From Acholeplasmataceae bacterium (GTDB lineage: Bacteria; Bacillota_I; Bacilli_A; ML615J-28; CAG-313): DNA of 40,265 nt. The translations under genes and the position numbers were made by a program. The notes under the pieces were generated by a model. That model searched no databases and had not been told where the DNA came from. It was given only the letters and a program-made list of their open reading frames with translations. Positions 293-36,717 of the stretch are shown here, piece after piece (position 1 is the stretch's first letter; every line of letters begins with the position of its first letter). The stretch is from contig DUPC01000011.1 of NCBI GenBank assembly GCA_012838545.1, positions 1 through 40,265 of the forward strand. The letters are read 5' to 3'.

Positions 293-1168
293 CTAGACTT
301 TCATGTAATTTGCCCAGAAATGGTAATAAGCACCATATAGGCCACCATCGCTTTGCAGGGTGGCGTGAACAATTTTGGTGTTTTTTAAATAGGTAGCGTC
401 GCAGGTTTCTTTTAAGAATGGCATTAGTTCTTTAACCAAAGTCGGACGGTTGGAGATGGCACCTCCAATGGCTAAGATTTCCGGATTGAACAGGTAGATT
501 AAATTGGAGATTCCTTTTGCTACCCGGTAGAACCAGTGATTGATTAATTCGATTGCTTCTTGGTTTCCTTCGTCATACAATTTGAATAACTCAATTCCAT
601 TATTTATCGGTAGTTCCTGAGCTTGGGCCAGCGAAACGAGCGCTTTCACAGACGAACTTTCTTCCCAGGTGACATCTCCGACATACATTCTTCCAACTTC
701 CCCGGAAGCAAAGGAAAAGCCCCGGTAAATGTGACGGTTCACAACAATTGCTCCCCCAATTCCGGTCCCCAAAGTAATCAAAACAAAATCTTTCACATTG
801 GGGCGGTTGGCGATTTCTGCCAAAGCAAAGCAATTAACATCGTTTTCCACGGTGACTTTTAAACCTGTGGCACTGCTTACGGTTTCAATGATTTTGAATC
901 CGATAAAATTGGGAATCGTTTTGGTGGCGTTTAAGACGACTCCGGTGGTGCTGTCAATTACACCGGCGCTGCTGATTCCCACGCCCATTAAATCATAGTT
1001 TTGTTTCAACTCGTTGATTTTGTCAATAATATTATTGTAAATAAATGGTGCGCCATTTTCCGCGCAGGTCGGAAAAGATTGTTTGAAAACTAAGGTGTTG
1101 TCGGCAGGATCAAAGAGTCCATATTTAACATCTGTTCCTCCAACATCAAAAACTGCCACGTATTTCAT
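293..1168 (-). CDS. ROK-family sugar kinase (ManNAc/GlcNAc-type kinase or glucokinase-like)
   Basis: A 291-residue cytoplasmic ATP-dependent sugar kinase of the ROK family. The N-terminal phosphate-binding motif is VFDVGGTDVKYG (residues 6-17), the catalytic Asp is probably Asp110 in VENDVNCFALAE, and LGTGIGGA spans 133-140. The usual zinc-binding Cys cluster and the GExGH histidine are absent; the equivalent site reads SGEVGR (155-160), as in the zinc-free Gram-positive branch that includes beta-glucoside kinase BglK and putative N-acetylmannosamine kinases. I chose the ATG at 1168 rather than one 28 codons upstream because MKYVAVFDVGG is the normal family start and AGAGGAT lies just before it. 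The linked NanE makes ManNAc or GlcNAc the likely substrate, which is inference. It has its own promoter overlapping an operator-like site. Confidence 0.9.
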   Translation of the reverse strand: MKYVAVFDVGGTDVKYGLFDPADNTLVFKQSFPTCAENGAPFIYNNIIDKINELKQNYDLMGVGISSAGVIDSTTGVVLNATKTIPNFIGFKIIETVSSATGLKVTVENDVNCFALAEIANRPNVKDFVLITLGTGIGGAIVVNRHIYRGFSFASGEVGRMYVGDVTWEESSSVKALVSLAQAQELPINNGIELFKLYDEGNQEAIELINHWFYRVAKGISNLIYLFNPEILAIGGAISNRPTLVKELMPFLKETCDATYLKNTKIVHATLQSDGGLYGAYYHFWANYMKV

Positions 1169-1204
1169 AATATCCTCTTTTTCTAGTTTTAATTGTTTGT
1201 TTTT

Positions 1205-1237
1205 ATCAAGTATACCAATTTTAAGGAAAATTGTAAA
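1205..1237 (-). promoter_or_regulatory. Promoter of the ROK kinase with an overlapping operator-like sequence
   Basis: On the minus strand TTTACA (1232-1237) and TATACT (1209-1214) are separated by 17 bases. The -10 box is embedded in AATTGGTATACTTGAT (1205-1220). This resembles one half of the HutC-type operator used elsewhere in the window and the published NagR/YvoA operator style (ATTGGTATAG), but it is the weakest of the sites reported here. Confidence 0.55.
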
Positions 1238-1282
1238 GGAAATAGACATCACAGAAATCGGGAAGAATTAAAAAGAAATAAC

Positions 1283-1338
1283 TTGTCTATACTTTATTAG
1301 CCATATAAATTGCAAAATAATTAAAAGTCAGATATAAT
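1283..1338 (+). promoter_or_regulatory. Promoter and HutC-type operator for the esterase operon
   Basis: The operator-like CTTGTCTATACTTT sits at 1283-1296. Downstream, TTGCAA (1311-1316) and TATAAT (1333-1338) form a -35/-10 pair with a 16-base spacer, about 30 bases before the ATG at 1368. The operator matches the island consensus in its left arm and centre but has lost the right-hand CAAG. Confidence 0.55.
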
Positions 1339-2303: not shown

Positions 2304-2306
2304 ATC

Positions 2307-3869
2307 ATGGAAACCAAACATTATGATATTATTGTTGTCGGCGGCAGCATTGGGGGTGTTTTGGCGGCTTTTTCTAGCGCCAAATCCAATCTCAAGGTTG
2401 CCTTAATCGAAGAAACCCGCTGGATTGGCGGACAACTCACCAATCAAGCCGTGCCAAGCGATGAACACCGTTGGATTGAAGAATTCGGTTGCACCGCCAC
2501 TTACCGGAGGTTTCGCAATCGCGTTCGCGACTATTACCGAAATCATCCTCACTTTAATAAGGAAGTAGCAAAAAACCCTTATTTTAACCCGGGTGCAGGA
2601 TGGGTTAGCAGGATAGCCCACGAACCGCTTGTTTCGTTAAAGATTTTTTACGAAATGTTAAATCCTTATTTGGAAAGCAAACAAATCGAACTATTCCTGG
2701 AAACCAAAGTAATTTCCGCGGAAACCGATAATGACATGGTAAAAGCGGTAATAGGCAAGAATTTAAAAACAAAAGAAAAAACCCGTTTTACCGGTACTTT
2801 CTTTATCGACGGAACGGACATCGGTTCGCTTCTGCCGTTAACGAATACCGAATATGTTACGGGGGCGGAAAGCAAAGCGGAAACCAATGAACCGCACGCA
2901 CCGCTTGAAGCTTCAAAATACGATATGCAACCGGTAACTTGGGTAGCCGCCATCGAATTTGCGAAGGGCGAAAACCATACCATCGAAAAACCACCATATT
3001 ATGATTATTTCAACAGCGTGGTTATGGATTTTGCGGCTGGGGTAAAAAAACTCAGCTGGGAATACCCGGGGTTAAAACGGGGACAAAAAGAAAGAGGATC
3101 GCTTTTCGGTCATGAAGGAATCAATCTCTTCACTTATCGCCGGATAATCAATAGTGCCTATTTCACCGACGATTATGTTAAAAACGACGTTACTATTTTA
3201 AATTGGCCCCAAAACGATTATCATTTTGGCAATATCTATGAAAGTCCGGATGCGGAACACCATTATATGATGGCCAAGGAATTGACCAAATCCGTTGTCT
3301 ATTGGCTGCAAACGGAAGCGCCAAGGGAAAACGGTTTGAAAGGATATCCGGAAATTAAACTGAGAGGCGATGTGACGGGAACCGAAGACGGTTTGGCGAT
3401 GGCGCCTTACATTCGGGAGTCACGACGAATTAAAGCTCTTCACACCATTTACGAACAAGATATCAGTGCTTTGACCAACGATTCCCTCCCCCATGTTTGG
3501 GATACCGTGGGCGTTGGTTCCTACCATATTGACATGCATATGACTACCGTATCGCATACCTTCTTCTACGATCACAGTTGGCCGTTCGAAATACCGCTTG
3601 GTGCGCTTATCCCGGTTCGAATGAAGAACTTGCTTCCGGCATGCAAAAACATCGGCACAACCCATATAACCAACGGTTGTTTCAGACTTCATCCGGTAGA
3701 ATGGAACATCGGGGAAGCAGCAGGATACTTTGCGGATTACTGTATGAAATTAAACAAAACCCCTCAAGAGGTATACCAAGATAAATCCTTGGTCCAAAAA
3801 TTCCAAAGTATGTTAGAAAAAAACGGTTTTGAACTCCATTGGCCGAAGGATAAGGTCCATGCGATATAG
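2307..3869 (+). CDS. FAD-dependent oxidoreductase (FAD_oxidored/PF12831 type)
   Basis: A 520-residue flavoprotein. The N-terminus has the dinucleotide-binding fold YDIIVVGGSIGG (residues 6-17), followed by LIEETRWIGGQLTNQ, the typical FAD-pyrophosphate and isoalloxazine region of the FAD_oxidored family; FIDGTDIG (around 168) is the second FAD contact. No signal sequence is visible, so it is cytoplasmic. Family members are frequent in glycan-utilisation loci but their reactions are mostly unproven; oxidation of a sugar or a sugar acid is a reasonable guess only. It starts 3 bases after the esterase with GGAG before the ATG, so the two are co-translated. The stop at 3867-3869 lies inside the ribosome-binding site of the next gene. 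Confidence 0.85.
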   Translation: METKHYDIIVVGGSIGGVLAAFSSAKSNLKVALIEETRWIGGQLTNQAVPSDEHRWIEEFGCTATYRRFRNRVRDYYRNHPHFNKEVAKNPYFNPGAGWVSRIAHEPLVSLKIFYEMLNPYLESKQIELFLETKVISAETDNDMVKAVIGKNLKTKEKTRFTGTFFIDGTDIGSLLPLTNTEYVTGAESKAETNEPHAPLEASKYDMQPVTWVAAIEFAKGENHTIEKPPYYDYFNSVVMDFAAGVKKLSWEYPGLKRGQKERGSLFGHEGINLFTYRRIINSAYFTDDYVKNDVTILNWPQNDYHFGNIYESPDAEHHYMMAKELTKSVVYWLQTEAPRENGLKGYPEIKLRGDVTGTEDGLAMAPYIRESRRIKALHTIYEQDISALTNDSLPHVWDTVGVGSYHIDMHMTTVSHTFFYDHSWPFEIPLGALIPVRMKNLLPACKNIGTTHITNGCFRLHPVEWNIGEAAGYFADYCMKLNKTPQEVYQDKSLVQKFQSMLEKNGFELHWPKDKVHAI

Positions 3870-3879
3870 AGGTGATGTA

Positions 3880-6156
3880 ATGACTAAAATAAAACAAACT
3901 TTAATATGTTTAATCGCTTTGTTCAGTATGATTAGTTTTATGAATTTGAGAGTAGAGGGAAATAATATGAATCAAGTAGCAGTTATCTCCGTTACGAAAA
4001 TCGGCGGTGTCCGAAATACCAATAACTTGGTAGTTTATTTGGCAAAAGATTATCCCGACGGCAGCGATCAAAATCAATGGGGTTTTGAAGCAGCGGTTAA
4101 CAGCGAAGGGATTGTCGTGGAACTGGGCGTTAATGTTAGAATGCCAAATGGCGGTTTTATTGTTTCCGGTCACGGAACTTCCGAAACCACCGTTATAAAC
4201 ACTTTTAAACTAGGTCAATACGTCGAATTCAATCAAGACCAAATGAAACTATATGTTTATGAAGACCAAGCATTCAGTTATTATTATGGCGCAAAAAGCA
4301 ATTTAGAAAACGCCAATCTTAGGGTAACCGCTCAGGTTAATGCGATGTTTGATATTGACTTAACGCGCATTCAAACTTTTCAAAATCAAGCAAACAGTCT
4401 TTTAAGCGACTTGGAGGAGGCTTATCAGGTTTATCAAACCAACCAAAGCCCTTCCGCTTTGAGTGTGGTAAAAGAAAAAGCCGGACAAATCAACAACCTA
4501 AGTCAAGATATATATTATTTGAGTTATCCTAATTTCAAAATCGAAGGCCGAGTTCTTTGGCATCGTCCTAATTCCGGTCAAGGATATGATGAATTAACCC
4601 TGGAAGGTGTTAAAAAAATGCTTGATCAAATGAAAAAGATGGGTATTCAAACGATAATGATTGAAACCTTCTGGGAAGGCTTTGTTTGTTATCAATCCGA
4701 ATATTTACCGTATCAACCGCAGATGAAGAAAAACGGCGTTATTCCAACCTACGGCGAATACGGGCAAGACTATTTGAAATGCGTTATCGGCGAAGCCAAA
4801 AAACGTGGCATCGAAATTCATGCTTGGACCGAAACCTTTTTGGCAGGAGTGAGCGGACCCGGTCAAATTGGCTTATCTAGCCACATCAAGCAAGAATGGC
4901 TTAGCGTCAACTATTTTGGCGTTCCGGGAGAACTTTCCGGCAATGCCACCCTTTACTATTTTGACCCGGCTAATCTGGAAGTTAGAACTTTATTAACTGA
5001 TGCGTATCGGGAACTGGCGCGCAATTACGATCTTGACGCGATTGAACTCGATTATATCCGTTATCCTTATTCGAACCTTATCAGTTTCAAAAACGGTCAA
5101 AGTACTTCCATGATTAATGACAACGGTTATACCGAGTATGCCATGAATGACTTTATGACCAGTTACGGCTATAGCGGAGACATGAAACAACTTATTGCTA
5201 CTTCAAGCAAGGCCAGAAACGAGTGGATTAAATATCGCACCCAAAAAGTCACCGAATCGGTTATGGTTTTCCGAAATGCGATTTTGGAAGAGAAACCGGG
5301 AATGAAGATTACGATAGCGGTAGCTGCTGATCATCAACAAGGCATCAATAACTATTGTCAAAATTGGACTGAATGGGCCAAATTTGGTTGGATTGATTCG
5401 GTCAAACCGATGGCTTATACCGCGGACACCAATTATGTCGGAAACCTTACTCAAATTTACTTGGATTTAGTCGGTTCCATGAGTTTGGTGTATGCCGGGA
5501 TTGGACCGGTGTATTTCGGTTATCCGGTAACCGTCAACCAAGACCAAATGACAATCGCCGTGCTTAAAGGCGGAGCGGGAAGCGCGATTTTTGCAGCATT
5601 AAACATCTTAGGGAACGAGGAGTTTGAACGCGCATTAGAATTAAGCGCATCCTACATTCCGCGCCTTTCTCCGGAAAGCGCCCCTCAAGTATTGTTGGAC
5701 GAAGGTTTGAGTTATATTCTCGATAAAATGGATCGCATCTATAACCGGGATTTGCAATTCAACAATATTGAAACCATTAAAACAATTTTGACAAATGTGT
5801 TAGCGATAGAATTAACCCCGGTTGTCGGATACGAAAAAGTGGTCGAAGAATTGGATAAAGCGATTAATGAACTTTCCAAAACCACCAACACCACAATTAA
5901 GCAAAGAATGTATGAGGATTTATCGTACATGCGTCGCTTATTCGATTATTTAATCAGCCGCACTTTAATCAACAGCGGCGATTGGATTCCGAGTTTGAAT
6001 CCGAACCGTCCAAGCGGTATATCGGTCAAAGTTCCGGATCCGGTTACCGAAAAACCGAAGGGCTGCGGTTGCCAAAGCGATTTTGCGATTGTAGTTAGCA
6101 CCCTGGCAATACCTGTTTTAGCTTTTTTTGTCTATCGCCGAAGACAAAGCATCTAA
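3880..6156 (+). CDS. Secreted GHL10/DUF187 glycosidase-like protein with C-terminal Gly-Cys membrane tail (first copy)
   Basis: A 758-residue exported protein. I chose the ATG at 3880 because AGAGGTG (3868-3874) lies five bases upstream and a clear signal peptide follows at once. Residues about 32-128 form a domain containing VNSEGIVVE and PNGGFIVSGHG, also seen in the second copy and probably in the repeat lipoprotein. A helical linker follows. About 219-540 is the glycosyl-hydrolase-like 10 barrel (DUF187), with EIHAWTET and IELDYIRYP near 388-396. The family includes E. coli DigH (YddW), a hydrolase of denuded peptidoglycan glycan strands. The last 32 residues are KGCGC, a hydrophobic helix and RRR, which should hold the protein in the membrane with the enzyme outside. 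It is third in the esterase operon and is followed by a terminator. Confidence 0.9.
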   Translation: MTKIKQTLICLIALFSMISFMNLRVEGNNMNQVAVISVTKIGGVRNTNNLVVYLAKDYPDGSDQNQWGFEAAVNSEGIVVELGVNVRMPNGGFIVSGHGTSETTVINTFKLGQYVEFNQDQMKLYVYEDQAFSYYYGAKSNLENANLRVTAQVNAMFDIDLTRIQTFQNQANSLLSDLEEAYQVYQTNQSPSALSVVKEKAGQINNLSQDIYYLSYPNFKIEGRVLWHRPNSGQGYDELTLEGVKKMLDQMKKMGIQTIMIETFWEGFVCYQSEYLPYQPQMKKNGVIPTYGEYGQDYLKCVIGEAKKRGIEIHAWTETFLAGVSGPGQIGLSSHIKQEWLSVNYFGVPGELSGNATLYYFDPANLEVRTLLTDAYRELARNYDLDAIELDYIRYPYSNLISFKNGQSTSMINDNGYTEYAMNDFMTSYGYSGDMKQLIATSSKARNEWIKYRTQKVTESVMVFRNAILEEKPGMKITIAVAADHQQGINNYCQNWTEWAKFGWIDSVKPMAYTADTNYVGNLTQIYLDLVGSMSLVYAGIGPVYFGYPVTVNQDQMTIAVLKGGAGSAIFAALNILGNEEFERALELSASYIPRLSPESAPQVLLDEGLSYILDKMDRIYNRDLQFNNIETIKTILTNVLAIELTPVVGYEKVVEELDKAINELSKTTNTTIKQRMYEDLSYMRRLFDYLISRTLINSGDWIPSLNPNRPSGISVKVPDPVTEKPKGCGCQSDFAIVVSTLAIPVLAFFVYRRRQSI

Positions 6157-6209: not shown

Positions 6210-6243
6210 GGAATTTGTCCGGAATATTTAATATATTTATTAA

Positions 6244-6273
6244 CTTGACTATACAAGAAAAATAACGTATAAT
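6244..6273 (+). promoter_or_regulatory. Strong promoter with overlapping HutC-type operator (GH84 operon)
   Basis: TTGACT (6245-6250) and TATAAT (6268-6273) have a 17-base spacer. The -35 box is inside the full operator CTTGACTATACAAG (6244-6257), so a bound repressor would block polymerase directly. The identical 14-mer recurs at 14690. Confidence 0.8.
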
Positions 6274-6309: not shown

Positions 6310-7986
6310 ATGATTAAATTGCCTAGCTATATAAGAGACAGCTATTTTTTAAACAGTTACGTTAAATTCGAAAATACCAAAAAACTTCCTTTAAACTTAA
6401 CCTCTCGAACCATTACTTATCAAATGTTTTCCGATTTTGACAAAATCCTTGATTTAAACAAAATCGAAATTGGCGGAAATGACCCTGCCACTTTGTATGT
6501 TGCCTATAACCGAGAACTAAAAAGCGATGCTTATCGCTTGGAAATAACCAAAGCCAAACAAATTAAAGTGGAAGCTTCCTCACGCAGGGGGATTCGCTAT
6601 GCCTTGGCATTGCTTTCGGATTTGATTGTATTTGAGGGGAATGATTGTTATTTGCCGATTATCCAAATCGACGATGAACCTAGTTTTGCCCGTCGGGGAA
6701 TTATCGAAGGATTTTACGGTGTGCCGTGGACGCAGGAAGAAAGACTCGATGAAGTCGATCTTATGAACCGCTACCGAATGAACACATATATGTATGCCCC
6801 CAAAGATGATGAATACCATCGGAAGTTATGGTCAAAACTATATCCGGAAACCGAATTGAACCAGTTATTGGCAATCAAGGATAAATGCAGTGAATTTGAC
6901 ATTGATTTTGTTTATTGCATCAGTCCCGGCAATGACTTTGATTACAGCAGCGAAGAACATTTTACTTTATTGTTTAGAAAACTCGATCAAGTCATTGAAC
7001 ATGGCGTCAAACATTTTGGCGTGTTAATGGACGATATTGATTATAAATTAAGTCCTAAAAATAAAGAGCGTTTCAACCGTCCGGGCATCGCCCATGCATA
7101 TATCGTAAGCCGAGTTAACAGTTATCTGAAAGAAAAACTGTTTGACCACACTTTGATTATGTGTCCAACCGAATACCACCAAAACCATGACAGTATATAT
7201 CGCCATGATTTGGCTACTTATCTGGATAAAAATGTAGCGGTGTTTTATACCGGGGATGCGGTATGTGCGGAAGTGATTGACGAAAAAACGATTTCGAGTG
7301 TCAGAAACTATTTCGACCATCCGCTCTTTATTTGGGAAAACCATCCAGTTAACGACTTCTTGCCGGGCAGAATCTTTACAGGTCCGATTCAAAACCGTTC
7401 CAAAAGAATGGCGCAATATGTTGATGGATATATTACCAATCCGATGAACCAATGGTTGGCATCGCGCGTGGGAATTGTGTCTTGCGCCTACTATGCCTGG
7501 AATTCGGAAAGTTACGATCCGGAAAAAGTCTATCTTGAAGTATTGGAAAAAGAATTTCCGGAACTGTTGCCTGACTTGAAAATATTTTTCGACGCCAACC
7601 GGGCAACCGTTGTGGATCATTACAATAATCACCAATTTGCCCAATGGGTTGAAGAAGGAAAAAACGATGAAATTATTAATTATTATCAAACTTTGGAGAA
7701 AGCGGTTAATCAATTATTGACACACAAAGACCATCCGTTAATCAAAGAAATCACGCCATGGCTATATTGGGCTTTAACCGAAAGTTCGTTAATCAAAGAT
7801 ATCATTAACAATACTTTTTCTTATCTTGAATTAACCGAAAAACTGCAAACCCAAACACGATTGGGTATTGAATGCTTGGATAAGCTAATACTTAGCAAAC
7901 TTGTCTTAACGCCAGAAGATTACCAACAACTTATAAAAGCAAAACGCGGCAACCTTTGGTGGCGCATCTGGGAGGATAAAAAATGA
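6310..7986 (+). CDS. Cytoplasmic GH84 beta-N-acetylglucosaminidase (NagJ/O-GlcNAcase type)
   Basis: A 558-residue enzyme of family GH84. Residues 1-125 match the GH20b-like helper domain, and the barrel begins at FARRGIIEGFYGVPW (126-140), the hallmark of the family. The catalytic pair is Asp241-Asp242 in VLMDDIDY; GH84 enzymes use two adjacent aspartates in substrate-assisted catalysis with the acetamido group of GlcNAc. No signal peptide or surface domains are present, unlike the long secreted clostridial homologues, so this version should trim GlcNAc from short imported oligosaccharides. GGAGG sits well before the ATG. It leads a five-gene operon and its stop overlaps the next start (ATGA). 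Other N-acetylated beta-linked sugars are possible substrates. Confidence 0.93.
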   Translation: MIKLPSYIRDSYFLNSYVKFENTKKLPLNLTSRTITYQMFSDFDKILDLNKIEIGGNDPATLYVAYNRELKSDAYRLEITKAKQIKVEASSRRGIRYALALLSDLIVFEGNDCYLPIIQIDDEPSFARRGIIEGFYGVPWTQEERLDEVDLMNRYRMNTYMYAPKDDEYHRKLWSKLYPETELNQLLAIKDKCSEFDIDFVYCISPGNDFDYSSEEHFTLLFRKLDQVIEHGVKHFGVLMDDIDYKLSPKNKERFNRPGIAHAYIVSRVNSYLKEKLFDHTLIMCPTEYHQNHDSIYRHDLATYLDKNVAVFYTGDAVCAEVIDEKTISSVRNYFDHPLFIWENHPVNDFLPGRIFTGPIQNRSKRMAQYVDGYITNPMNQWLASRVGIVSCAYYAWNSESYDPEKVYLEVLEKEFPELLPDLKIFFDANRATVVDHYNNHQFAQWVEEGKNDEIINYYQTLEKAVNQLLTHKDHPLIKEITPWLYWALTESSLIKDIINNTFSYLELTEKLQTQTRLGIECLDKLILSKLVLTPEDYQQLIKAKRGNLWWRIWEDKK

Positions 7987-9515
7987 AGCAAAAAGTAGTG
8001 CTGCTTCCATTAGACGAAAGACCATGCAATTATGTCTTTCCCCAAAGAATTTTTAAAGAAACCGATATTGAAGTTGTAACCTGTGATTTGAGCATATTGG
8101 GTAAAAAGAAGACTCCAGCGCAAATCGATAAGCTCCAAGCCTTTTTGCTTGACGAAACGCGCGATGCTTTTGGCCTTGTAGTTAGTATTGATATGCTTTT
8201 GTACGGTGGGATTGTACCATCCAGGTTACACCGTGAAACAGAAGATACTTTAAAAAAACGGCTGGACATCTTGCGTCAAATCAAAAAGATTAATCCAAAG
8301 ATTAAAATCTTTGCCTTTGATTTAATCATGCGTTGTCCGCAATACAGTTCTTCCGACGAAGAACCGGACTACTATGAGGTTTGCGGAAGAGAAATCTTTT
8401 TGTCGGGTTACATCCAAAACCGTATTGAACTTGGTGTTGCCACCGAAGAAGAAAAAAACCGGTTGCCGGGTATTTTGGAAAAAATCAAACCGGAATATCT
8501 GGAAGACTTTTTACATCGCAGAGGACTCAATCTAAAACTCAATTTGACAAGTCTTGATTTAATCAAAGAAAACATAATTGATTTCTTGATTTTCCCTCAG
8601 GATGATGCCAGCGAATTCGGCTATACCGCAAAAGACCAAACCGTCATTCGAAAGGACATTACCGAGAACCATTTGGATTTCCAAGTATATATGTATCCGG
8701 ATGCAGATGGGGTGACGAATGTCTTATTGTCGAGGATGCTTCTTCAAGAAAAAAGAATTCGTCCGTTGATTTATGTGCGTTATTTGTCGCCTGCTTCACC
8801 GCTTCAGATACCTTGTCTTGAAGACCGTTATTTGGATGTAAGCGTAAGGTATCAGATATTGGCAAGCGGTGCGCTGGTAGCAACATCTGCCAGCGAAGCC
8901 GATATTGTTTTGCTGGTGGCAAGCGGCGGGGACAAAATGGAAACTGGACCCGACAAACAAACCAATCCCGGCCGAACCATTACGGTTCTTCGCAATTTGG
9001 TGGATGGATTGGAGTACGCGGAATACTGCATAAACACTTTAAAGAAACCGGTGATGATAGCGGATATCGCTTATCTGAACGGTGCCGATTTGGAACTTGT
9101 TGCTTTGCTCAACAAGCGGGGATTATTGTTTGAACTGGCGTCTTATGCCGGTTGGAACACCGCTGCAAACTCTCTGGGCACTTGCATTCCGCATGGAATC
9201 GTCACCATGTTATACGGAAAAACCAAGTCTTACTATGACTTCATGGTTTTAAGATACTTAGAGGATGCGATGTATTGCAGTATTGTGCGGTCGCTTGTAA
9301 CAAATAAGTATTTAGCCGAAAGAGGTTTCCATTATTTCTATGTCGGCGAAACTGACGGCGAAATCAGCCAAATCGTAAAGGAAGAAATCATCAAGCATGC
9401 CCAAATCTATTTGTCCGAAATGACGGATAAATTCCGAATCAACCGGTGTTACATGCCGTGGGCGAGAATGTTTGAAGTAGGGTTAGATGTGGAATTCCTT
9501 GAAAAAGGAAATTAA
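7983..9515 (+). CDS. DUF4127 protein, first copy
   Basis: A 510-residue cytoplasmic protein of the DUF4127 family. Recognisable family marks are VVLLPLDERPCNY at the N-terminus, DMLLYGGIVPSRLH around residue 63, IFPQDDASEFGYTAKDQ in the middle and a late AGWNTAANSLG. The strictly kept Asp, Glu and His positions suggest an enzyme, perhaps metal-dependent, but no reaction is known to me. Its ATG overlaps the GH84 stop, implying translational coupling with an amino-sugar hydrolase. A paralogue lies 2.4 kb downstream, and each copy sits next to the same GHL10 gene. That repeated pairing suggests it handles a product of GHL10 or GH84 action. Function is otherwise unknown. Confidence 0.85.
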   Translation: MKQKVVLLPLDERPCNYVFPQRIFKETDIEVVTCDLSILGKKKTPAQIDKLQAFLLDETRDAFGLVVSIDMLLYGGIVPSRLHRETEDTLKKRLDILRQIKKINPKIKIFAFDLIMRCPQYSSSDEEPDYYEVCGREIFLSGYIQNRIELGVATEEEKNRLPGILEKIKPEYLEDFLHRRGLNLKLNLTSLDLIKENIIDFLIFPQDDASEFGYTAKDQTVIRKDITENHLDFQVYMYPDADGVTNVLLSRMLLQEKRIRPLIYVRYLSPASPLQIPCLEDRYLDVSVRYQILASGALVATSASEADIVLLVASGGDKMETGPDKQTNPGRTITVLRNLVDGLEYAEYCINTLKKPVMIADIAYLNGADLELVALLNKRGLLFELASYAGWNTAANSLGTCIPHGIVTMLYGKTKSYYDFMVLRYLEDAMYCSIVRSLVTNKYLAERGFHYFYVGETDGEISQIVKEEIIKHAQIYLSEMTDKFRINRCYMPWARMFEVGLDVEFLEKGN

Positions 9516-14570: not shown

Positions 14571-14662
14571 CAAGAAGGAAAATCAATGTTTATTGGGGGT
14601 TAAAAAACGGTCAAAAAGAACCCTAAAAAAAGCTATAGGCAAACGTTTTCCTTTTTTTGCAA

Positions 14663-14719
14663 CTTGTGTAGACAATTTTTACGATTTTGCTTGACTATAC
14701 AAGCAAAGTATAGTAAAAT
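14663..14719 (+). promoter_or_regulatory. Promoter of the large lipoprotein with two HutC-type operators
   Basis: TTGACT (14691-14696) and TAAAAT (14714-14719) have a 17-base spacer. One operator, CTTGACTATACAAG (14690-14703), covers the -35 box. A second, CTTGTGTAGACAAT (14663-14676), lies exactly 27 bases upstream. It is the only promoter here with two near-complete copies. Confidence 0.75.
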
Positions 14720-19080: not shown

Positions 19081-19091
19081 ACATGTCTAAT

Positions 19092-26154: not shown

Positions 26155-26166
26155 GAGGTGGCAACA

Positions 26167-28824
26167 GTGGCGAAAGAAAAAATATCAGCAGAGAATTACT
26201 ACCGTGCTTCCTTTTTAGCAAGAACCTTCTACAAGTTGCGTCTGGCCTTACGCGAATGGATAGAAAACTTTAGAATTCCGTTCGGTAAGATTATCGGCGT
26301 CATCATCATCGGTTTATTATTCCTTGGCATTTACTTGATTGTCAAGTTCAATGCGATTGAGATACCGGTGCGTCCTCCCTACAATAAAGAGGGATTTGTT
26401 GCAGCGATTGATAAATACAAAGACAATGCCCTTGGCACCAAGGTGTACGAAAACGATTCTTATATCTTTACTTTTGACGAAACAACCACGCACTTTACCA
26501 TCACCAACAAAGCGAACGGTCAAGTGTGGGCATCTTACCCATCCATCGTCAATAGCGAAGGCAATGTAGAACCAGACACCAAACGGGATATTGTCAACAT
26601 TTACTACTACAAAGCGCTGGGAACTCCTTCCAGCATGGGCAGTTACCGGTTTGCGGTTAAGGAAGAAATAATCAATAACGAAAACAAAGGTACCGATTAT
26701 TATCTTCGTTACAACGATACCGAAAAATCAATTGAAGTTTTATATCGCATTAGTTCCAAAGGTATCTCCACGACCGATCTGCCAACGCAAATGAGCAAGG
26801 AACGCTTCCAGGAGAAAATTATCGGTAAATTGGAAGAAATCGGCACCATCGAAGCGCTTTCGATGATTGAAGACATTACTTCCTTCTATCACTTGATTCC
26901 GGAACTCAATGCCTGGAAATTAAAAGCGGAAGGTCCGTTAGCCCTAGGCCGTATCGACAATATCTTAAAACTTGTCGGCTATACCGTAGAAGACTTGGCT
27001 TATGATAATGCGGAGCAGGGAATAGCGGTGGAAGATTCCCGAGCGGAATTTGAAGTAGCGGTTAAATACACTTTAACCGATCATGGTTTTGAAGCTAAAA
27101 TCATCAATGCTTCCATTGTGGAAAAAAACAATGCCCCGATTATATATATTGATTTCTTACCGTTCTTTGGTTCCAGCACCGAAAAAGATTCCGGTTATGT
27201 AGTAATTCCGGAAGGTTCGGGAATTTTAATCAACCATAACAGCGGAAAGAATTATGCCGGTAAGAGATTATACGGACCGGACATTGCCAACAGCAAAGAA
27301 ACAAAAACAAACGATTCATTAAATATTTCTTTACCGCTTTTTGGGGTAAAACAAAATGACGGCGGGTTTATTTCCGTCATCAAAAACGGCGGCGGGATGG
27401 CAACGTTCCTAGCGCAAAACCCATCGTCCAGCACACCGGTTAACTTTTCGTATTATCGTTTCCATTACCGGGAAGGTCAATTGTACGAGTTCGTTACATG
27501 GCGTACCGTTCAACCGGTAACAATTTGGACCAAATATTTTAGTTTGGAAGACTATACGCTTGAATATCGGTTTACCGATCAGGAAAAAGTTGATTATACC
27601 GATATGGCGAACATGTATCGCGAATACTTGCTTGAACAAGGTTTAACCCCTAAGACTCAAAGTTCCGAACTTTTGTTCAACTTAACGCTTCTTGGCGGTT
27701 ATGAGTACTTGTCGACTACCCTAGGCATTCCAACCAATAAAATCGGCACCTTGACATCGTTTGAACAAGCGAAGAAGATTATTGACGAATTGACAAGCGA
27801 CAATGTTGCAGCGATAAGTGTCTTATACCAAGGTTGGATGAACGACGGTATCAGGCACTATAGTCCGGTAAAAATCAAAAACGAAAAAGCGGTCGGTTCC
27901 AGACGCGATTTGATTGCCTTTGGGGAATATCTTGCGGGAAAGGGAATTGGTTTCTATCCGGAAATGAACTTTAACACTTATTACACGGATAAAAACTTCA
28001 GCAAGAAAAACGATAGCGTCCGTACGGTTTTTGCAACCGTCGTCGAAAGCTACCGTTTCAACCCGGCGACCTTAAGAGCAGACTGGACGACTACTCCTTA
28101 TTACACTTTAAGGGCAACCGAATTTGACCGGGTTATCGATAAAATCTTAAAAACCTATGCTAAACAAAAACAAACAACGATTTCGTTGCTTGATTTAGGC
28201 AATGCTTTAAGCGGAAGTTACCGAAACAAAGATACTATCTTCCGCAGCCAAACTGAAGAAGCCAGTCGTATCGTCTTAGAGAAACTGCTTAATGAATACA
28301 TTGAAGCAATCAACCTCCATAATCCAAGCGGCTATGCATTGGAATATGTGACGAATGCGGTGGACGTAAGCATGTTTGGTCCACAAGGCAAAGCCATTGA
28401 TGCAACGATTCCGTTCTATCAATTGGTAGTAAGCGGTTTGTTTGAATATGCGGGCGATGCGATTAATATGCTTGACTTATATTCGTATCAAACCCATGTT
28501 CTCAAAACCATAGAAACGGGTTCGAATCTCCACTTCACATGGAGTTATGAAGATACCTTGAATACTACCAAAACCGAATACAATAACTATTATTCAACCT
28601 ATTACAAAAATTGGTATGAAAAAGCCGTTAATACCTATCATGAAATTAACGATTTGGGCATCCACGGGGCAAGATTAATTGACCATGAATTTGTTAATGG
28701 CAATACAAAGTTAGTCTTGGTAACCTATGAAAACGGTACATCAATCTTTATCAACTATACCAATAACAAAGTAAATTATTCCGGCAGCGATGTACCTGCC
28801 ATGTCTTACAAGGTGGTGAGCTAG
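26167..28824 (+). CDS. DUF5696 protein, membrane-anchored extracellular
   Basis: An 885-residue protein with a cytosolic N-terminus, one transmembrane helix at about 40-62 (IIGVIIIGLLFLGIYLIV) and a large outside part. The GTG at 26167 is chosen because AGGAGG (26153-26158) lies eight bases upstream; the GTG at 26158 overlaps that site. The first outside region is beta-rich (FTITNKANGQVWASYP). The second half, with ISVLYQGWMNDGIRHYSP and GIGFYPEMNFNTYY, looks like a TIM barrel and may be glycosidase-like. The family is DUF5696, with no activity known to me. The operon position between importer genes suggests glycan binding or trimming at the transporter. Confidence 0.8.
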   Translation: MAKEKISAENYYRASFLARTFYKLRLALREWIENFRIPFGKIIGVIIIGLLFLGIYLIVKFNAIEIPVRPPYNKEGFVAAIDKYKDNALGTKVYENDSYIFTFDETTTHFTITNKANGQVWASYPSIVNSEGNVEPDTKRDIVNIYYYKALGTPSSMGSYRFAVKEEIINNENKGTDYYLRYNDTEKSIEVLYRISSKGISTTDLPTQMSKERFQEKIIGKLEEIGTIEALSMIEDITSFYHLIPELNAWKLKAEGPLALGRIDNILKLVGYTVEDLAYDNAEQGIAVEDSRAEFEVAVKYTLTDHGFEAKIINASIVEKNNAPIIYIDFLPFFGSSTEKDSGYVVIPEGSGILINHNSGKNYAGKRLYGPDIANSKETKTNDSLNISLPLFGVKQNDGGFISVIKNGGGMATFLAQNPSSSTPVNFSYYRFHYREGQLYEFVTWRTVQPVTIWTKYFSLEDYTLEYRFTDQEKVDYTDMANMYREYLLEQGLTPKTQSSELLFNLTLLGGYEYLSTTLGIPTNKIGTLTSFEQAKKIIDELTSDNVAAISVLYQGWMNDGIRHYSPVKIKNEKAVGSRRDLIAFGEYLAGKGIGFYPEMNFNTYYTDKNFSKKNDSVRTVFATVVESYRFNPATLRADWTTTPYYTLRATEFDRVIDKILKTYAKQKQTTISLLDLGNALSGSYRNKDTIFRSQTEEASRIVLEKLLNEYIEAINLHNPSGYALEYVTNAVDVSMFGPQGKAIDATIPFYQLVVSGLFEYAGDAINMLDLYSYQTHVLKTIETGSNLHFTWSYEDTLNTTKTEYNNYYSTYYKNWYEKAVNTYHEINDLGIHGARLIDHEFVNGNTKLVLVTYENGTSIFINYTNNKVNYSGSDVPAMSYKVVS

Positions 28825-31254: not shown

Positions 31255-31941
31255 ATGTTAGAAAAAATCAAAGGCGGCCTAATCGTATCCTGCCAAGCGC
31301 TTGAAAACGAACCTTTGTACAGTTCCTTTATCATGGGAAGAATGGCACTAGCCGCAAAAATGGGAGGAGCCGTAGCGATTCGCGCAAATTCCGTAGATGA
31401 CATCAACGAAATCAAACGCGTTACGGGTTTGCCGGTTATAGGCTTATTAAAAAGATGTTATTCAAACTCCGATATATATATAACCCCTACCCTTAAAGAA
31501 GTGAACGAACTCTTGGGGACCGAGTGTGAAGCGATTGCGGTAGACGCAACCAATCGCGCCCGCCCCAACGGGGATTCGTTAAGAGTGATTGTTGATGCGA
31601 TTCATCAAGGAAATCGTTTGGCGATGGCCGATATTTCGACATTAGAAGAAGCCAAGGAAGCTGAAAAACTAGGTTTTGACATGATTTCGACGACACTGGC
31701 GGGATATACCGAATACAGCAACCAACTCGAGGGGCCTGACTTTCAAGTCATCAAGGAATGCGTGGAGAACATCAAGATTCCGGTGATTGCGGAAGGAAGA
31801 ATCAGTACAGTGGAAGAATTACGGGAAGTCCTAAAGTACAATGTGCATGCGGTAGTAATTGGTTCTGCCATTACCCGCCCTCAACTCATTACCGAAAAGT
31901 TCATTAAGGTAATGAATGAAAAAGGCAATAAATCTTTATGA
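31255..31941 (+). CDS. nanE: N-acylglucosamine-6-phosphate (ManNAc-6-P) 2-epimerase
   Basis: A 228-residue cytoplasmic TIM-barrel enzyme that converts ManNAc-6-phosphate to GlcNAc-6-phosphate. The sequence follows the NanE family end to end: LIVSCQALENEPLYS at the N-terminus, catalytic Lys66 in GLLKR, VDATNRARPNG at about 97-106, Glu180 in IAEGRIST and the phosphate-binding VIGSAITRP. A strong AAGGAGG precedes the ATG. It sits between importer 2 permeases and its binding protein, so ManNAc or a ManNAc-containing glycan is probably an imported substrate. No sialic acid lyase (NanA) or sialidase is present here, so sialic acid is not the only option. Confidence 0.95.
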   Translation: MLEKIKGGLIVSCQALENEPLYSSFIMGRMALAAKMGGAVAIRANSVDDINEIKRVTGLPVIGLLKRCYSNSDIYITPTLKEVNELLGTECEAIAVDATNRARPNGDSLRVIVDAIHQGNRLAMADISTLEEAKEAEKLGFDMISTTLAGYTEYSNQLEGPDFQVIKECVENIKIPVIAEGRISTVEELREVLKYNVHAVVIGSAITRPQLITEKFIKVMNEKGNKSL

Positions 31942-31999: not shown

Positions 32000-33481
32000 A
32001 TGAAAAAATTCTTATGGGTGTTTTTAATTCTTTTAACCTTCAGTTTTGTGACTGCTTGTGGCGGCGGTGACGATAATGGCGATGATCCGAAAGAGAAAGA
32101 TATTGACCTAGGCGGTCAAGATTTCGTTATTATGGTTGATACACCGAATCGCCAAGACCCACGTACCGATGAATACGAAAGAATGTACCAACAACAAAAA
32201 GCTCAAAAAATTGCTGAAGTTGAAGCTAAATACAATTGTCGAGTTGTCTTTAGCCCTTATACATCTTCTTGGGGACAAGACCGTCGCAATCAATTAAAAG
32301 AAGATAATCTGGCAGGAAAAAAGGAAGTCCATGTTTTTGAAGTAAACTCTTCTTGGATTCCATTCTTAGCGGAAAACGGCGTTATTTCCGATTTAAAACC
32401 ATATATCGATACTCTTATCGATAAAGAAACTCAATACTGGATTGAAAAAGAAGGATATACTCAATTTAAGGGTGGTATCTACGGTTATGACGATATGCTC
32501 AACATGGCCGAATCCGGAATTTTCTACAACATCGATCTTTTAGCCGAAGTATTGGGCGAAGAAAACAAAGACTTACCTTCCCAATTATGGCTTGAAGGCC
32601 AATGGACATGGGCAAAATTTGAAGAATTGGTTGACCAATTATATTCATGGGTTGTCCAACAAAACGAACCTTACCACGTTCTTGGCGGTATGGGTTATAA
32701 CTGGGCATACCACATGGCAGCAGCAAACGGTCTTCGTTATGTCAACAATGATTTCCAAATTGAATTCATGAACGACGACATGATTGAAACATTCGAATAT
32801 CTACGTCGTTTATACAATAAGACAGTTGTAAGCAAATCGCCGGTATGGCAAACAACCACTAACTGGTCATTAACTGCTATTCCAGAATTCTCCGCCGGTA
32901 AAGTATTCTTCCATGACGGCGAAAGCTGGTACTTGTCAATGCAAAACAGATGGTTAAGAACTGATCAAAACCGTGATTTCGATATCGGATTCGTACCATT
33001 CCCAGTAGGTCCAAATGTTGAAGAAGATTTATCCAACTACTACATCAGCTGCATTACCGGTCAAGCAACATATGTAATCTCTTCCGCTTTTGAAAAAGAT
33101 CGTATTCCAAAAGGTTATGAACATGTGTACTTGCATGACGAAACAATCTTCAAGATTTGGCGGGATTTACAATACTTCTCACCAGTAGGAAGGGAATCCT
33201 ATGCCAACCAATTCATTACTCGCAGAGCCGTTTCTTACTACGGAAGCGAATCAAGCGTTGAAGCTCATCGTTCCATCATCAACAAACTAAATGTTGAATA
33301 CTTCTATTACATTGAAGGCATGGATAACCACGATTATGCAAGCGGAATGGGTCAATTAGGCTTAGCCGTAACCGACTCCGGTATGGACCCTCGTACTGCT
33401 TTACAAAGCTTATATGTTCATGTTGCTACCCAAATTTTTGACCAATTTGGAATTGAACAACAAGAAGCAACCGGTCAATAA
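32000..33481 (+). CDS. Lipoprotein ABC solute-binding protein, importer 2
   Basis: A 493-residue extracellular solute-binding protein of the family-1 sugar type. The signal peptide ends at lipidated Cys20 (FVTAC), followed by a flexible GGGDDNGDDPK linker. Landmarks include DFVIMVDTPN, YEVNSSW-like hinge strands (VHVFEVNSSWIPFLAENG) and WTWAKFEELVDQL. AAAGGAG lies before the ATG. It prefers CCA and CCT for Pro, unlike the CCG-rich enzymes nearby, as expected for an abundant protein. It follows nanE after the 12-bp inverted repeat. The ligand is unknown; an amino-sugar oligosaccharide is inferred. Confidence 0.9.
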   Translation: MKKFLWVFLILLTFSFVTACGGGDDNGDDPKEKDIDLGGQDFVIMVDTPNRQDPRTDEYERMYQQQKAQKIAEVEAKYNCRVVFSPYTSSWGQDRRNQLKEDNLAGKKEVHVFEVNSSWIPFLAENGVISDLKPYIDTLIDKETQYWIEKEGYTQFKGGIYGYDDMLNMAESGIFYNIDLLAEVLGEENKDLPSQLWLEGQWTWAKFEELVDQLYSWVVQQNEPYHVLGGMGYNWAYHMAAANGLRYVNNDFQIEFMNDDMIETFEYLRRLYNKTVVSKSPVWQTTTNWSLTAIPEFSAGKVFFHDGESWYLSMQNRWLRTDQNRDFDIGFVPFPVGPNVEEDLSNYYISCITGQATYVISSAFEKDRIPKGYEHVYLHDETIFKIWRDLQYFSPVGRESYANQFITRRAVSYYGSESSVEAHRSIINKLNVEYFYYIEGMDNHDYASGMGQLGLAVTDSGMDPRTALQSLYVHVATQIFDQFGIEQQEATGQ

Positions 33482-33508: not shown

Positions 33509-35395
33509 ATGCAAAAAACATTAAAGATTTTTAGTATCATCGTTTTATCCGGATTATTGCTTTTAGGCATAACCCCTCTTAAGGTAAATTCTGCTTCCTA
33601 TAATCCTACAAACGACAAAACAACCGACTTAGGTCACAATGTTGTAATGCATGAAACGATCGGTACTTTCCAAGGAAGTCAATATATCAATTATGTAGTA
33701 TTTAACCCAGTAACAACTAAATCAATCAAGTTAATTCCTTGGGCAGTTCTTAACCAAGAAACACAAACCAACATCAGAAGTAGCGTGTTGAATATTGCCA
33801 AAGACTATGAAGCCAAAAACCCGGGTTCGAAAGTGATTGCGGGGATAAATGCAGACTTTTTCCCTTTTGTCCAAACCAACGAAAACCCGTTTAGCGCTCA
33901 AGTCATTGACGGCAATCTCCATCAAGGAGGAGTCTTCACCATCAATCAAGGCAGCACATATTATCCTGCCAATGTATTGGGCATCTATGATGACGGTACG
34001 CTAAAATCCAGCCACAATGTTTATGCGTCAAATGCAACATTCTTAGACATCTTTGACGAAAGAGGTACCGTGATTTATTCAACGCAACTATCCACCGTCA
34101 ACTCTACCGTTGGAAGCGGTCAAACCGGAGCCTTCTTTGGCACGATGTATACCAAACAACTAAATGAACAAGAAGGCATCTATTATGTCCAATCTCCTTC
34201 GTATGTCCGTGACGACAACAAGTTTGCCAGAGGAGTTATCTCTTCAGTTGTAAACCAATTGACGATGGCTAAACGGACGGTTGCAATAGTGACAAAAGAC
34301 GCTAAAGTTAAAAGCTACCTTAAAGAGGGTGTAGAAATCAGAGTAACCAAAAGACTTGCGGGTGAACTAGAAGGCGCAGTAAGCGCAATTGGTTTCTACG
34401 GTCACCCATTGCAAAACGGTGTAGTTCCGTCCTATGGTGCTTATCCTAATGGTTTAGGCGGCCCACGGGAACAATCCGTGGTTACAAGCGCCAATCCAAG
34501 AACCATGCTTGGCGTTAAAGAAGACGACACTGTGATTATGGGAATCGTGGAAGGAAGAGCCACCGGAAAAACCGGTTTAACCGGTCAAGGCGTAGGCGAA
34601 TTTCTGAAACAATTCGGCTGTATTGAAGGGTTTAATTTTGACGGCGGGGGTTCTTCAACCTTGGTTGCAAGAGTCAACGGCACGTTAAAACAAGTAGCAA
34701 CGGGCACAGACGGAACAAGAGCAGTCGTTAACGCTTTGTTGCTTGTCGAACAAGAAACCGACCCAATCGAATTGAATCCGGTAATTTCCGAAATCAAACA
34801 CAATTCCTTTAAAATCACCGTTGATCCTAAACCGAATGGTAACCAACAAATCCAAAAAATCGAAGCAGTTGTAAATGACGAATTCTACACTATCGAAAAC
34901 AACACAATCGTAATCGAGGATGCCAAAGTTACTTCAAGCAATACGGTTAGATTTAAAGTGACCTATACGGAAAACGGTACGTCGAAATCCTTTTCGACTT
35001 TGAAAACAATTACTGTAAAAACGGTTGCCTTGCCACCGGAAGTTTCGGTTGAGGTTAGAGAAATCACTACATCTTCAGTATCATTTAACGTTACCTTAAA
35101 TACCAACGGTTCCACCATTATCGAAGCATACTTTGTATTCGGGGATAATCATAGAGTCATTATCCCAGGACAAAACATTTTGACGTTCCAAAATTTGAAA
35201 AGCGGAAACACTTATAAGTATTCTTCCATTGTCAATTATAATGATGAAACCGGATCGAAATATTATACCTTCCCTGAAACAAGCGTTCAAGTCAAAAAGG
35301 CATCAGGTTGTGGAAGCAATGCGATGTATATATATAGCGCTTTATCGACTGTAGCGATTGCGCTATTCCTCGTGCGTCGCAAAAAGAACCAATAA
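33509..35395 (+). CDS. Secreted phosphodiester glycosidase (NAGPA family) with Fn3-like domains and Gly-Cys tail
   Basis: A 628-residue exported enzyme. A signal peptide ends near VNSAS (residue 30). The NAGPA catalytic fold covers about 40-415, with GINADFF (112-118), NPRTMLGV (329-336) and FDGGGSST (377-384), the family's best conserved elements. Animal NAGPA removes GlcNAc from a GlcNAc-1-phosphodiester; bacterial members are thought to cut similar sugar-phosphodiester bonds. Two Fn3-like domains follow (about 420-505 and 508-597). The tail is SGCG (599-602), a hydrophobic helix and RRKK, like both GHL10 proteins. It ends the import operon and is followed by a terminator. Exact substrate not shown by sequence. 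Confidence 0.9.
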   Translation: MQKTLKIFSIIVLSGLLLLGITPLKVNSASYNPTNDKTTDLGHNVVMHETIGTFQGSQYINYVVFNPVTTKSIKLIPWAVLNQETQTNIRSSVLNIAKDYEAKNPGSKVIAGINADFFPFVQTNENPFSAQVIDGNLHQGGVFTINQGSTYYPANVLGIYDDGTLKSSHNVYASNATFLDIFDERGTVIYSTQLSTVNSTVGSGQTGAFFGTMYTKQLNEQEGIYYVQSPSYVRDDNKFARGVISSVVNQLTMAKRTVAIVTKDAKVKSYLKEGVEIRVTKRLAGELEGAVSAIGFYGHPLQNGVVPSYGAYPNGLGGPREQSVVTSANPRTMLGVKEDDTVIMGIVEGRATGKTGLTGQGVGEFLKQFGCIEGFNFDGGGSSTLVARVNGTLKQVATGTDGTRAVVNALLLVEQETDPIELNPVISEIKHNSFKITVDPKPNGNQQIQKIEAVVNDEFYTIENNTIVIEDAKVTSSNTVRFKVTYTENGTSKSFSTLKTITVKTVALPPEVSVEVREITTSSVSFNVTLNTNGSTIIEAYFVFGDNHRVIIPGQNILTFQNLKSGNTYKYSSIVNYNDETGSKYYTFPETSVQVKKASGCGSNAMYIYSALSTVAIALFLVRRKKNQ

Positions 35396-35424
35396 ATAAG
35401 ATAAGTATTTTGAAAACAAACAAA

Positions 35425-35458
35425 AAAAGGCAAGGATTATTTCAAATCTTTGCCTTTT
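35425..35458. terminator. Bidirectional terminator between convergent genes
   Basis: AAAAGGCAAGGATT (35425-35438) pairs with AATCTTTGCCTTTT (35445-35458) with a single mismatch around a 6-base loop. It can end the phosphodiester glycosidase on the plus strand and the lipoprotein on the minus strand. Confidence 0.9.
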
Positions 35459-35481
35459 AAATAATTGATAAATATTAAAAA

Positions 35482-36717
35482 CTAATCGTCTTTTCGTTTA
35501 GGAATAATCGATACCGTTTCTCCGCCCATTAGGGTTTGTTGGTCGGTGCTGGTGATGATAAAAGCATCGGTACTCGGACAACTTAAACGGTACTGGCGGC
35601 TTGCCACAAAAGGAACGCGATGAATTTGGCCGGAAATGTTTCTTAATAAGTAGACTTCCTGCCAAACGGCGTTTTCGACTTTGGCGGAAGTTGCTTGCGC
35701 AGGTTTACCTTCGTTAGCGACTTGGTCAATCGCATTGACCCTTTTGAACTCTGCCAGCGTTTTTCCATGACCACCCGAATAAAACATTGGACTCGCAAAA
35801 GATTTTGGCTCTTTCCAACCGTTTGCTTTCCGTAAATTGACGGATTCGGGAAGTGTGGAAACCGAAATGACATCGATTTTTAATTGAAGGTAATTTTCTT
35901 TGGGACTATAAACCATCATCTTGATGGAATCGCCCGGAAGATAATAATATTCTGTTTCTTTGTAATGCCAATTGCCATAACAATTGTTGCCGTTGCAACT
36001 CACCGCATACTCTCCGTCGTGTTCGGAATAACTACCTTCATCTTTGTTGATGGTAGTAATGTAGCGCCAAAACGGACGGTACACCATGGAGTAAGTGGAA
36101 ATTGAACCGTTCTTTAGTTGCGCAAGCGATAAGGATACACCTGCATCGCTTTCGCTGCCGGCATTTCCCCCCATGTAAATGGAAGGATTGTCTAAGTATT
36201 TGCCCCCTTGAAATCTTGCTTTATCCGGAGTAAATACCGGAAGGGTAATTACGCCGACAATTCCTCGCCAGTAATCTTTGCTGGAAACCACTTTATGGTA
36301 CCATGCACCTGGAAAACAACTTTGAGGTTGGGGCAAGCGTTCTCCGGAAATTTCATCGGTATATAAAGGATAATCTTCGATTTGTTGGTCGCTAATGATA
36401 ATGATTGTTCTTGTTACGGGAGTAGCGATATTACCGTCTTTATCGATTAGATTATAGGTAATGGTGTAAGAGCCGGGTTGATTGGGATTGTAATCTCCTT
36501 TATTGATGGTGATTCGGCCAGTAATGTCGCCTTCGATATTGTCAAGTCCGGTTACTCCGTCCATCAGATCCAGCGTTTCGCCGATTCGCACCTTTATCGT
36601 GTCATTGTAGACAGTAATTAAAGGGGGAATAGTATCTTTTTCTTTAGGTGTTTTATCGCAACCAATGATGGTAAAGCCAAACAAAAACAGGGTTAAAATC
36701 AGTAAATAAGACTTCAT
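35482..36717 (-). CDS. Lipoprotein with Ig-like (DUF5011) domain and an unrecognised C-terminal domain
   Basis: A 411-residue lipoprotein lipidated at Cys20 (FTIIGC). I chose the ATG at 36717 rather than one seven codons upstream because AAAGGT lies before it and the signal peptide is regular. Residues about 30-113 are a DUF5011 Ig-like domain (DITGRITINKGDYNPNQPGSY), very like that of the giant lipoprotein. About 120-411 is a domain I do not recognise. It is rich in aromatic residues and Gly, with AWYHKVVSSKDYWRG, GGNAGSESDAGVSLS and RPFWRY, plus a CNGNNCYG pair of cysteines that could form a disulfide. Carbohydrate binding is plausible, not shown. It has its own regulated promoter, divergent from the GntR gene. 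Confidence 0.8.
   Translation of the reverse strand: MKSYLLILTLFLFGFTIIGCDKTPKEKDTIPPLITVYNDTIKVRIGETLDLMDGVTGLDNIEGDITGRITINKGDYNPNQPGSYTITYNLIDKDGNIATPVTRTIIIISDQQIEDYPLYTDEISGERLPQPQSCFPGAWYHKVVSSKDYWRGIVGVITLPVFTPDKARFQGGKYLDNPSIYMGGNAGSESDAGVSLSLAQLKNGSISTYSMVYRPFWRYITTINKDEGSYSEHDGEYAVSCNGNNCYGNWHYKETEYYYLPGDSIKMMVYSPKENYLQLKIDVISVSTLPESVNLRKANGWKEPKSFASPMFYSGGHGKTLAEFKRVNAIDQVANEGKPAQATSAKVENAVWQEVYLLRNISGQIHRVPFVASRQYRLSCPSTDAFIITSTDQQTLMGGETVSIIPKRKDD

Follow-up and report, generated by a model that had tools for sequence, protein, structure and literature searches.

A predicted NagR/YvoA-like regulon for the use of exogenous amino-sugar glycans, with a DUF4127-containing core, in an Acholeplasmataceae bacterium

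Analysis of a 40,265-nucleotide stretch of DNA from an Acholeplasmataceae bacterium (assembly GCA_012838545.1, contig DUPC01000011.1, which is contig C47 of the host genome in our numbering; hereafter the window) suggests that its gene island is a NagR/YvoA-like regulon for importing and degrading exogenous glycans that bear N-acetylglucosamine (GlcNAc) and probably N-acetylmannosamine (ManNAc) and that are partly phosphodiester linked; we put the probability of this reading at about 0.6. The likely source of these glycans is the envelopes of other bacteria, and the teichoic acid-peptidoglycan junction, to which an earlier sequence-only reading had matched the enzyme set, is one candidate substrate among several. 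New here is a constant core of DUF4127, an FAD oxidoreductase, NanE, a ROK kinase, and an ABC transporter, found in Bacilli and in wall-less Acholeplasma. DUF4127, an uncharacterised family, is the most constant enzyme of the set, and neither it nor the FAD oxidoreductase is explained by the chemistry of the junction.

In the proposed mechanism, a NagR/YvoA-like GntR repressor would control the regulon via the palindrome TTGTCTAKACAA. The polymer would be cut by surface-anchored GHL10-like enzymes, the phosphodiester glycosidase NAGPA, and a GDPD lipoprotein, and two ABC systems, whose binding proteins are large, would bring the pieces into the cell. There the cytosolic enzymes (a CE7-type esterase, GH84, the two DUF4127 proteins, the FAD oxidoreductase, ROK, and NanE) would lead to GlcNAc-6-phosphate, which could be used, after deacetylation, by NagB encoded elsewhere in the genome.

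The predicted proteins of the window were scanned with Pfam at gathering cut-offs. The enzymes named in the sequence-only reading were all recovered where it had placed them, and ROK, AXE1/CE7, both GHL10 proteins, GH84, GDPD, NanE, and NAGPA each exceeded the cut-off; outside its list are the two DUF4127 proteins, the FAD oxidoreductase, two sets of solute-binding protein (SBP) and ABC transporter genes, DUF5696, DUF624, Yip1, and NHL-TPR proteins, and a GntR-UTRA regulator. Between 1368 and 35395 all main genes share a strand, and most of them overlap or are only a few bases apart. The genes of the window are as follows:

293-1252, minus: ROK-family sugar kinase; Pfam ROK, 140.7 bits
1368-2303, plus: AXE1/CE7-type esterase; Pfam AXE1, 153.8 bits; GGSKGG serine motif; no signal peptide seen
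2307-3869, plus: FAD-dependent oxidoreductase (PF12831), cytoplasmic; Pfam, 308 bits
3829-6156, plus: GHL10-like surface enzyme a; Pfam, 85.6 bits; C-terminal GCGC-transmembrane-RRR tail
6310-7986, plus: GH84 beta-N-acetylglucosaminidase; Pfam, 318 bits; no signal peptide seen
7983-9515, plus: DUF4127 protein a; Pfam, 479 bits
9531-11909, plus: GHL10-like surface enzyme b; Pfam, 109 bits
11902-13413, plus: DUF4127 protein b; Pfam, 471 bits
13424-14512, plus: GDPD lipoprotein with Ig-like domain; Pfam, 106.7 bits; relatives in PDB
14763-18239, plus: Ig-like surface lipoprotein, 1158 aa; Pfam Bact_surface_Ig-like
18355-19080, plus: DUF624 membrane protein; Pfam
19171-22092, plus: large SBP, 973 aa; Pfam SBP_bac_1; 41% to a paralogue on host contig C13
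22093-24016, plus: ABC permease pair 1; BLAST, 65-69% to C13 paralogues
24029-25501, plus: NHL/TPR protein of the transporter cluster; Pfam; syntenic in five other loci
25498-26154, plus: Yip1-domain membrane protein; Pfam
26158-28824, plus: DUF5696 protein of the transporter cluster; Pfam, 506 bits
28825-31219, plus: ABC permease pair 2; syntenic homologues in relatives
31255-31941, plus: NanE, ManNAc-6-phosphate 2-epimerase; NCBIfam NF002231, 298 bits (cut-off 189)
32000-33481, plus: solute-binding lipoprotein, 493 aa (SBP493); Pfam
33509-35395, plus: NAGPA phosphodiester glycosidase, surface anchored; Pfam, 65 bits (cut-off 25)
35482-36738, minus: Ig-like lipoprotein (Ig418); Pfam; homologues in nine other loci
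37123-37875, plus: GntR-UTRA regulator; 173 bits to 4u0v (B. subtilis NagR/YvoA)

The regulator gene adjoins the island, and among solved structures its product comes closest to B. subtilis YvoA (NagR); DasR follows at 97 bits. The palindrome AACTTGTCTAGACAAGTT stands 5' of most transcription units; when up to two mismatches are allowed, TTGTCTATACAA occurs at 16 sites versus 4.3 expected, a number reached in none of 100 shuffles. The operator-like sites scored with a matrix were as follows:

1280-1297: weaker site between ROK and CE7; score 14.9
6242-6259: palindrome upstream of GH84, 60 bp before its start; score 21.0
14661-14705: two palindromes ahead of the gene for the 1158-aa lipoprotein; scores 20.8 and 20.1
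19090-19107: palindrome preceding the first SBP/ABC unit; score 21.1
36785-36802: palindrome upstream of the Ig418 lipoprotein gene; score 16.4
37057-37074: weak site upstream of the regulator gene; score 13.0

The seven sites of the window from which the matrix was built necessarily match it, and it was tested on DNA outside the window. There it found two sites in the sister island of a relative (G059) and four in Haloplasmataceae, with 0.15 expected in each case, and all of these are intergenic, 42 to 67 bp 5' of a gene. No site was found in 168 kb of other host-genome DNA, in 706 kb of Paenibacillus-type loci, or in the paralogous C13 island and the MurQ operon. Promoter-like sites are present 5' of the CE7, GH84, 1158-aa, and first SBP genes, their overall frequency being not above that in shuffled sequence, and terminator-like hairpins lie 3' of the GDPD gene (14538) and of the 1158-aa protein gene (18288). 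Taken as a whole, the island has the appearance of a single NagR-like regulon, in which the repressor would bind these sites and respond to GlcN-6-P or GlcNAc-6-P.

The composition of the module was compared across 80 DUF4127 loci, 79 from named genomes plus the window, which come from Haloplasmataceae, Acholeplasmataceae (including Acholeplasma granularum and Paracholeplasma vituli), Paenibacillus, Psychrobacillus, and others. Profile searches located NanE at 54 of these loci, the FAD oxidoreductase at 51, ROK at 42, GHL10 at 20, GH20C at 12, and GH84 at 11. NanE is on the DUF4127 strand in all 54 cases (median gap, 85 bp), as are GH84 in 11 of 11 (median gap, 42 bp) and GHL10 in 29 of 30, compared with a same-strand baseline of 71% for unassigned neighbouring open reading frames; of the 51 loci with the FAD oxidoreductase, 50 have it no more than 5 kb away from DUF4127. 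The gene set is therefore beyond chance, and by strand and distance most partners are operon partners. Paenibacillus loci also have an RpiR regulator and SBP/ABC genes in a simple set, and NagB is encoded near DUF4127 in three loci. The strongest case for a central role of GlcNAc/ManNAc chemistry is made by relatives without transpeptidases (penicillin-binding proteins [PBPs]): G059 has GH84, NanE, GntR, GHL10, two DUF4127 proteins, and NAGPA together, while G053 and G054 have two DUF4127 proteins, NAGPA, GDPD, GH20C, two GH31 proteins, and an AGE-type GlcNAc 2-epimerase, so that two epimerase and two beta-hexosaminidase families fill the same places.

A second type of DUF4127 operon occurs in the family of the host (four loci, one of them on host contig C51); it contains GntR, an Ig418-like protein, the FAD oxidoreductase, a 230-aa protein with no Pfam match, and, in locus L027, an SGNH esterase. 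The C-terminal part of Ig418 recurs beside DUF4127.

For DUF4127 protein a, an AlphaFold 2 model reached a predicted local distance difference test score of 95.3, and no entry among the PDB matches listed had a template modelling (TM) score above 0.28. Chitinase B and xylose isomerase were considered as folds and set aside, the listed matches (TM score at most 0.28) being probably due to chance. A profile of the family matched nothing under an E value of 0.08 among PDB sequences, and a search of a literature library gave no paper on it. Its invariant residues include Arg13, Arg81, Arg117, Arg180, Arg436, and Arg495, which would suit an anionic ligand. PDB matches of the FAD oxidoreductase were confined to the nucleotide-binding N terminus. 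We tentatively propose, at rather less than even odds, that DUF4127 and the PF12831 oxidoreductase form an undescribed route from an acidic or phosphorylated N-acetylhexosamine conjugate to the substrate of ROK/NanE, with which many Bacilli, and bacteria that truly have no wall, would feed on the envelope glycans of other organisms.

The predicted locations of the proteins divide the process into surface, import, and cytosolic stages. GHL10a, GHL10b, and NAGPA share a Cys-rich/transmembrane/Arg C-terminal tail (6050-6156, 11800-11909, and 35290-35395), and the N termini of GDPD, the 1158-aa protein, SBP493, and Ig418 read as lipobox-like; three Ig-like surface lipoproteins, GDPD among them, are encoded in the window. 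No signal peptide was seen in the sequences of GH84, DUF4127, the FAD oxidoreductase, CE7, ROK, or NanE. Surface enzymes at three other loci (L021, L078, and L115) also carry a Gly/Cys-transmembrane-Arg/Lys tail, which resembles CTERM sorting signals; of the window proteins, GHL10a and NAGPA were scanned for it, and neither matched an NCBIfam model.

Catalytic motifs are retained in several of these enzymes. GH84 has the catalytic Asp-Asp pair, its MDDID aligning with WDDIE of the NagJ-type 6pv5; NAGPA has a DUF2233 core with NPRT and DGGGS motifs, DGGGSSTL aligning with 3ohg; and GDPD has the HR, ExD, and downstream His motifs (AHRG, LECDVR, and NHDDT in alignment with solved GDPDs), with low similarity to all solved GDPDs and no GlpQ-specific match. 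The assignment of the GHL10 proteins to the family of DigH holds for the domain (85.6 and 109 bits; Pfam cut-off, 27.9) and for the fold: Foldseek placed the GHL10b model nearest to Cwp19, then PgaB, and then GH156. Cwp19, the only solved relative, is a lytic transglycosylase (PMC6016235), and its Asp196 has been proposed for the active site (PMC5765458). The assignment does not extend to that residue, which is Tyr in the window copies (LDYIRYP versus FDDYFYP in Cwp19); these have an additional invariant Glu near the Gln77 strand, and a GHL10 paralogue of the C13 island retains the FDDYFYP Asp pair. The activity of Cwp19/DigH is thus not safely transferable to the window copies. Because the fold is nearest to Cwp19 and then to PgaB and GH156, their substrate is likely an amino-sugar or related polymer. 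Of the pair credited earlier with ManNAc use, NanE is well above its cut-off, whereas ROK is not recognisable as a ManNAc kinase and appears not assignable to ManNAc: its NCBIfam scores for BglK (127 bits), NagK (100 bits), and NanK (77-86 bits) are all far under the cut-offs, with 77.4 bits set against 450 for NanK.

The host was presumed to be wall poor, and this premise fails. In its genome (1.71 Mb, 96% complete), which an rpoB tree places in a family sister to the metagenome-assembled genome Tenericutes ADurb.BinA124, we found eight Mur-ligase matches, six of them assigned (one MurC, one MurD, two MurE, and two MurF-like proteins), together with Ddl, MraY, and a PBP1A-family protein; PBP transpeptidases number two. 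The check covered the Mur ligases, Ddl, MraY, and the PBPs. The premise does hold for several relatives that bear the island: nine of those tested have a single Mur-ligase-like match, and the four of these nine that were tested for PBPs have none, which argues that the module is independent of its bearer's wall. An order-wide survey of 43 genomes found a PBP transpeptidase in 24, MurQ above its cut-off in 32, and DUF4127 in 8; a link between DUF4127 and wall absence was not significant (4 of 24 PBP-positive versus 4 of 19 PBP-less genomes). Neither the host nor any of the 10 Haloplasma/Acholeplasma-type relatives tested has TagA/WecG, the ManNAc transferase of the ManNAc-GlcNAc linkage unit, and the junction is therefore not made by the host.

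No sialidase, NanA, or MurQ was found among the window proteins with Pfam, as had been noted from the letters; for MurQ, this absence is not a trait of the organism, since two genes above the curated cut-off lie elsewhere in the genome (C40:5625-6491 and C27:59847-60713). The host MurQ operon comprises NamZ, MupG, a BadF kinase, AnmK, and MurQ, followed by EtfB, EtfA, and a GlcD/lactate dehydrogenase-type FAD-linked oxidase; the last three were confirmed in the host copy (L111, 507-10652) and in L113, from a PBP-less relative. MurQ exceeds the cut-off in 12 of 19 PBP-less genomes of the order (8 of 11 when only those of 90% completeness or more are counted), and nine of their neighbourhoods encode, as far as contigs allow, NamZ, GH3, a BadF kinase, AnmK, MurQ, and an esterase. 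A literature search gave no paper on use of N-acetylmuramic acid (MurNAc) in Acholeplasma. A 2024 survey infers that related orders would need muropeptide scavenging, and it makes no mention of recycling or MurQ (PMC10868615). Scavenging of walls, as the sequence-only reading had it, is plausible; it gains from the absence of TagA, the island in PBP-less relatives, and the MurNAc operons, and loses its premise of a wall-poor host.

Other observations concern the same genomes. In L113, a NagZ-like GH3 is fused to the 6-phospho-N-acetylmuramidase MupG in one 872-aa protein (2334-4952), and a GH9-family protein (L112:7500-9809) adjoins the second host MurQ gene. The sole DHDPS-family gene of the host (L163:3663-4439; C23:29659-30441) has an in-frame TAA inside the profile match; by eye it would read as DapA, not NanA, and dapA may be truncated or frameshifted. 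The paralogous host island (C13:20000-54822), which has two transporter sets and is without the window's operator, encodes an M19 dipeptidase, two canonical GHL10 proteins, GH20, two NAGPA proteins, GH3, and NagB.

That the set serves specifically to dismantle the linkage unit of other bacteria's walls (glycerophosphate-ManNAc-GlcNAc-1-phosphate-MurNAc) seems improbable. The families match, with GDPD, NAGPA, a beta-GlcNAcase, NanE, and GHL10 all present; G053 and G054 have the same functions in a partly non-homologous set, the linkage unit is not self-made, and the MurQ operons make MurNAc usable by the host and its relatives. However, NAGPA and GDPD, the most junction-specific enzymes of the set, are rare accessories, each found at 4 of the 80 DUF4127 loci; no beta-ManNAc-ase of a known family was recognised among the window proteins with Pfam; the GHL10 proteins are without the Asp196 equivalent, ROK is far under the NanK cut-off, and DUF4127 and the FAD oxidoreductase are left unexplained. 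Another reading is an operon for a nonulosonic (sialic acid-like) acid, in which DUF4127 and the FAD oxidoreductase would replace the NanA lyase. RpiR proteins are a regulator type of nan operons. In Paenibacillus, NanE, ROK, ABC, and RpiR genes form an operon without NanA, esterases are nearby, a GH156 exosialidase is among the top matches of the GHL10b model, and the invariant arginines of DUF4127 suggest an acidic ligand. We nevertheless regard it as quite doubtful: Cwp19 and PgaB fit the GHL10 model at least equally, and the regulator in the window resembles NagR and is not a NanR.

Eukaryotic or environmental amino-sugar glycans (chitin-like polymers, poly-N-acetylglucosamine, N- or O-glycans), instead of bacterial envelopes, are an unlikely food source, though one that fits the closeness of GH84 to O-GlcNAcase-type NagJ enzymes, the second-best fold match to the poly-GlcNAc hydrolase PgaB, and the presence of Paenibacillus and Acholeplasma species among the hosts. 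The island is without a chitinase, NanE would be superfluous for pure GlcNAc polymers, and GDPD and NAGPA would be unexplained. Recycling of the host's own envelope is very improbable. The host does have a peptidoglycan synthesis set and a MurNAc recycling operon, but TagA is absent, and wall-less relatives carry the island.

Several points weigh against the regulon of exogenous glycans that we favour. Its substrate, like the direction of the pathway, is something that we infer, and the Paenibacillus core operon mostly has neither NAGPA nor GDPD, so that the core may well serve a substrate other than a phospho-glycan. DUF4127 was also found in the Thermus and Deinobacterium controls, other N-acyl sugars may be the substrates of NanE and ROK, and the regulator reaches no NCBIfam equivalog cut-off, its likeness to NagR being that of the closest solved structure only. 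If the favoured reading is true, it would provide a function for DUF4127, a widespread family, and would imply that walled and wall-less members of one order live partly on the amino sugars of other bacteria. A named regulator and operator candidates make a direct test possible.

Parts of the island resemble known systems. GlpQ-type teichoicases (the subject of PMC7086022) likewise have a GDPD catalytic domain, here on a surface lipoprotein, whereas the similarity of the window GDPD to solved enzymes is low and not GlpQ specific. The GHL10 lytic enzymes Cwp19 and DigH share the Pfam domain and the TIM-barrel model (PMC6016235, PMC5765458) and differ in the Tyr for Asp196 and the additional Glu. 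MurNAc catabolism by NamZ, NagZ, AnmK, and MurQ is present elsewhere in the host genome and in PBP-less relatives, in a separate operon outside the window island. Unlike the NagR (YvoA)/DasR regulons, the window regulon is without nagA and nagB and contains surface glycosidases, DUF4127, and the FAD oxidoreductase, with predicted binding and ligand; like them, it has a GntR-UTRA regulator, with YvoA as its best solved match, and operator-like palindromes before several units.

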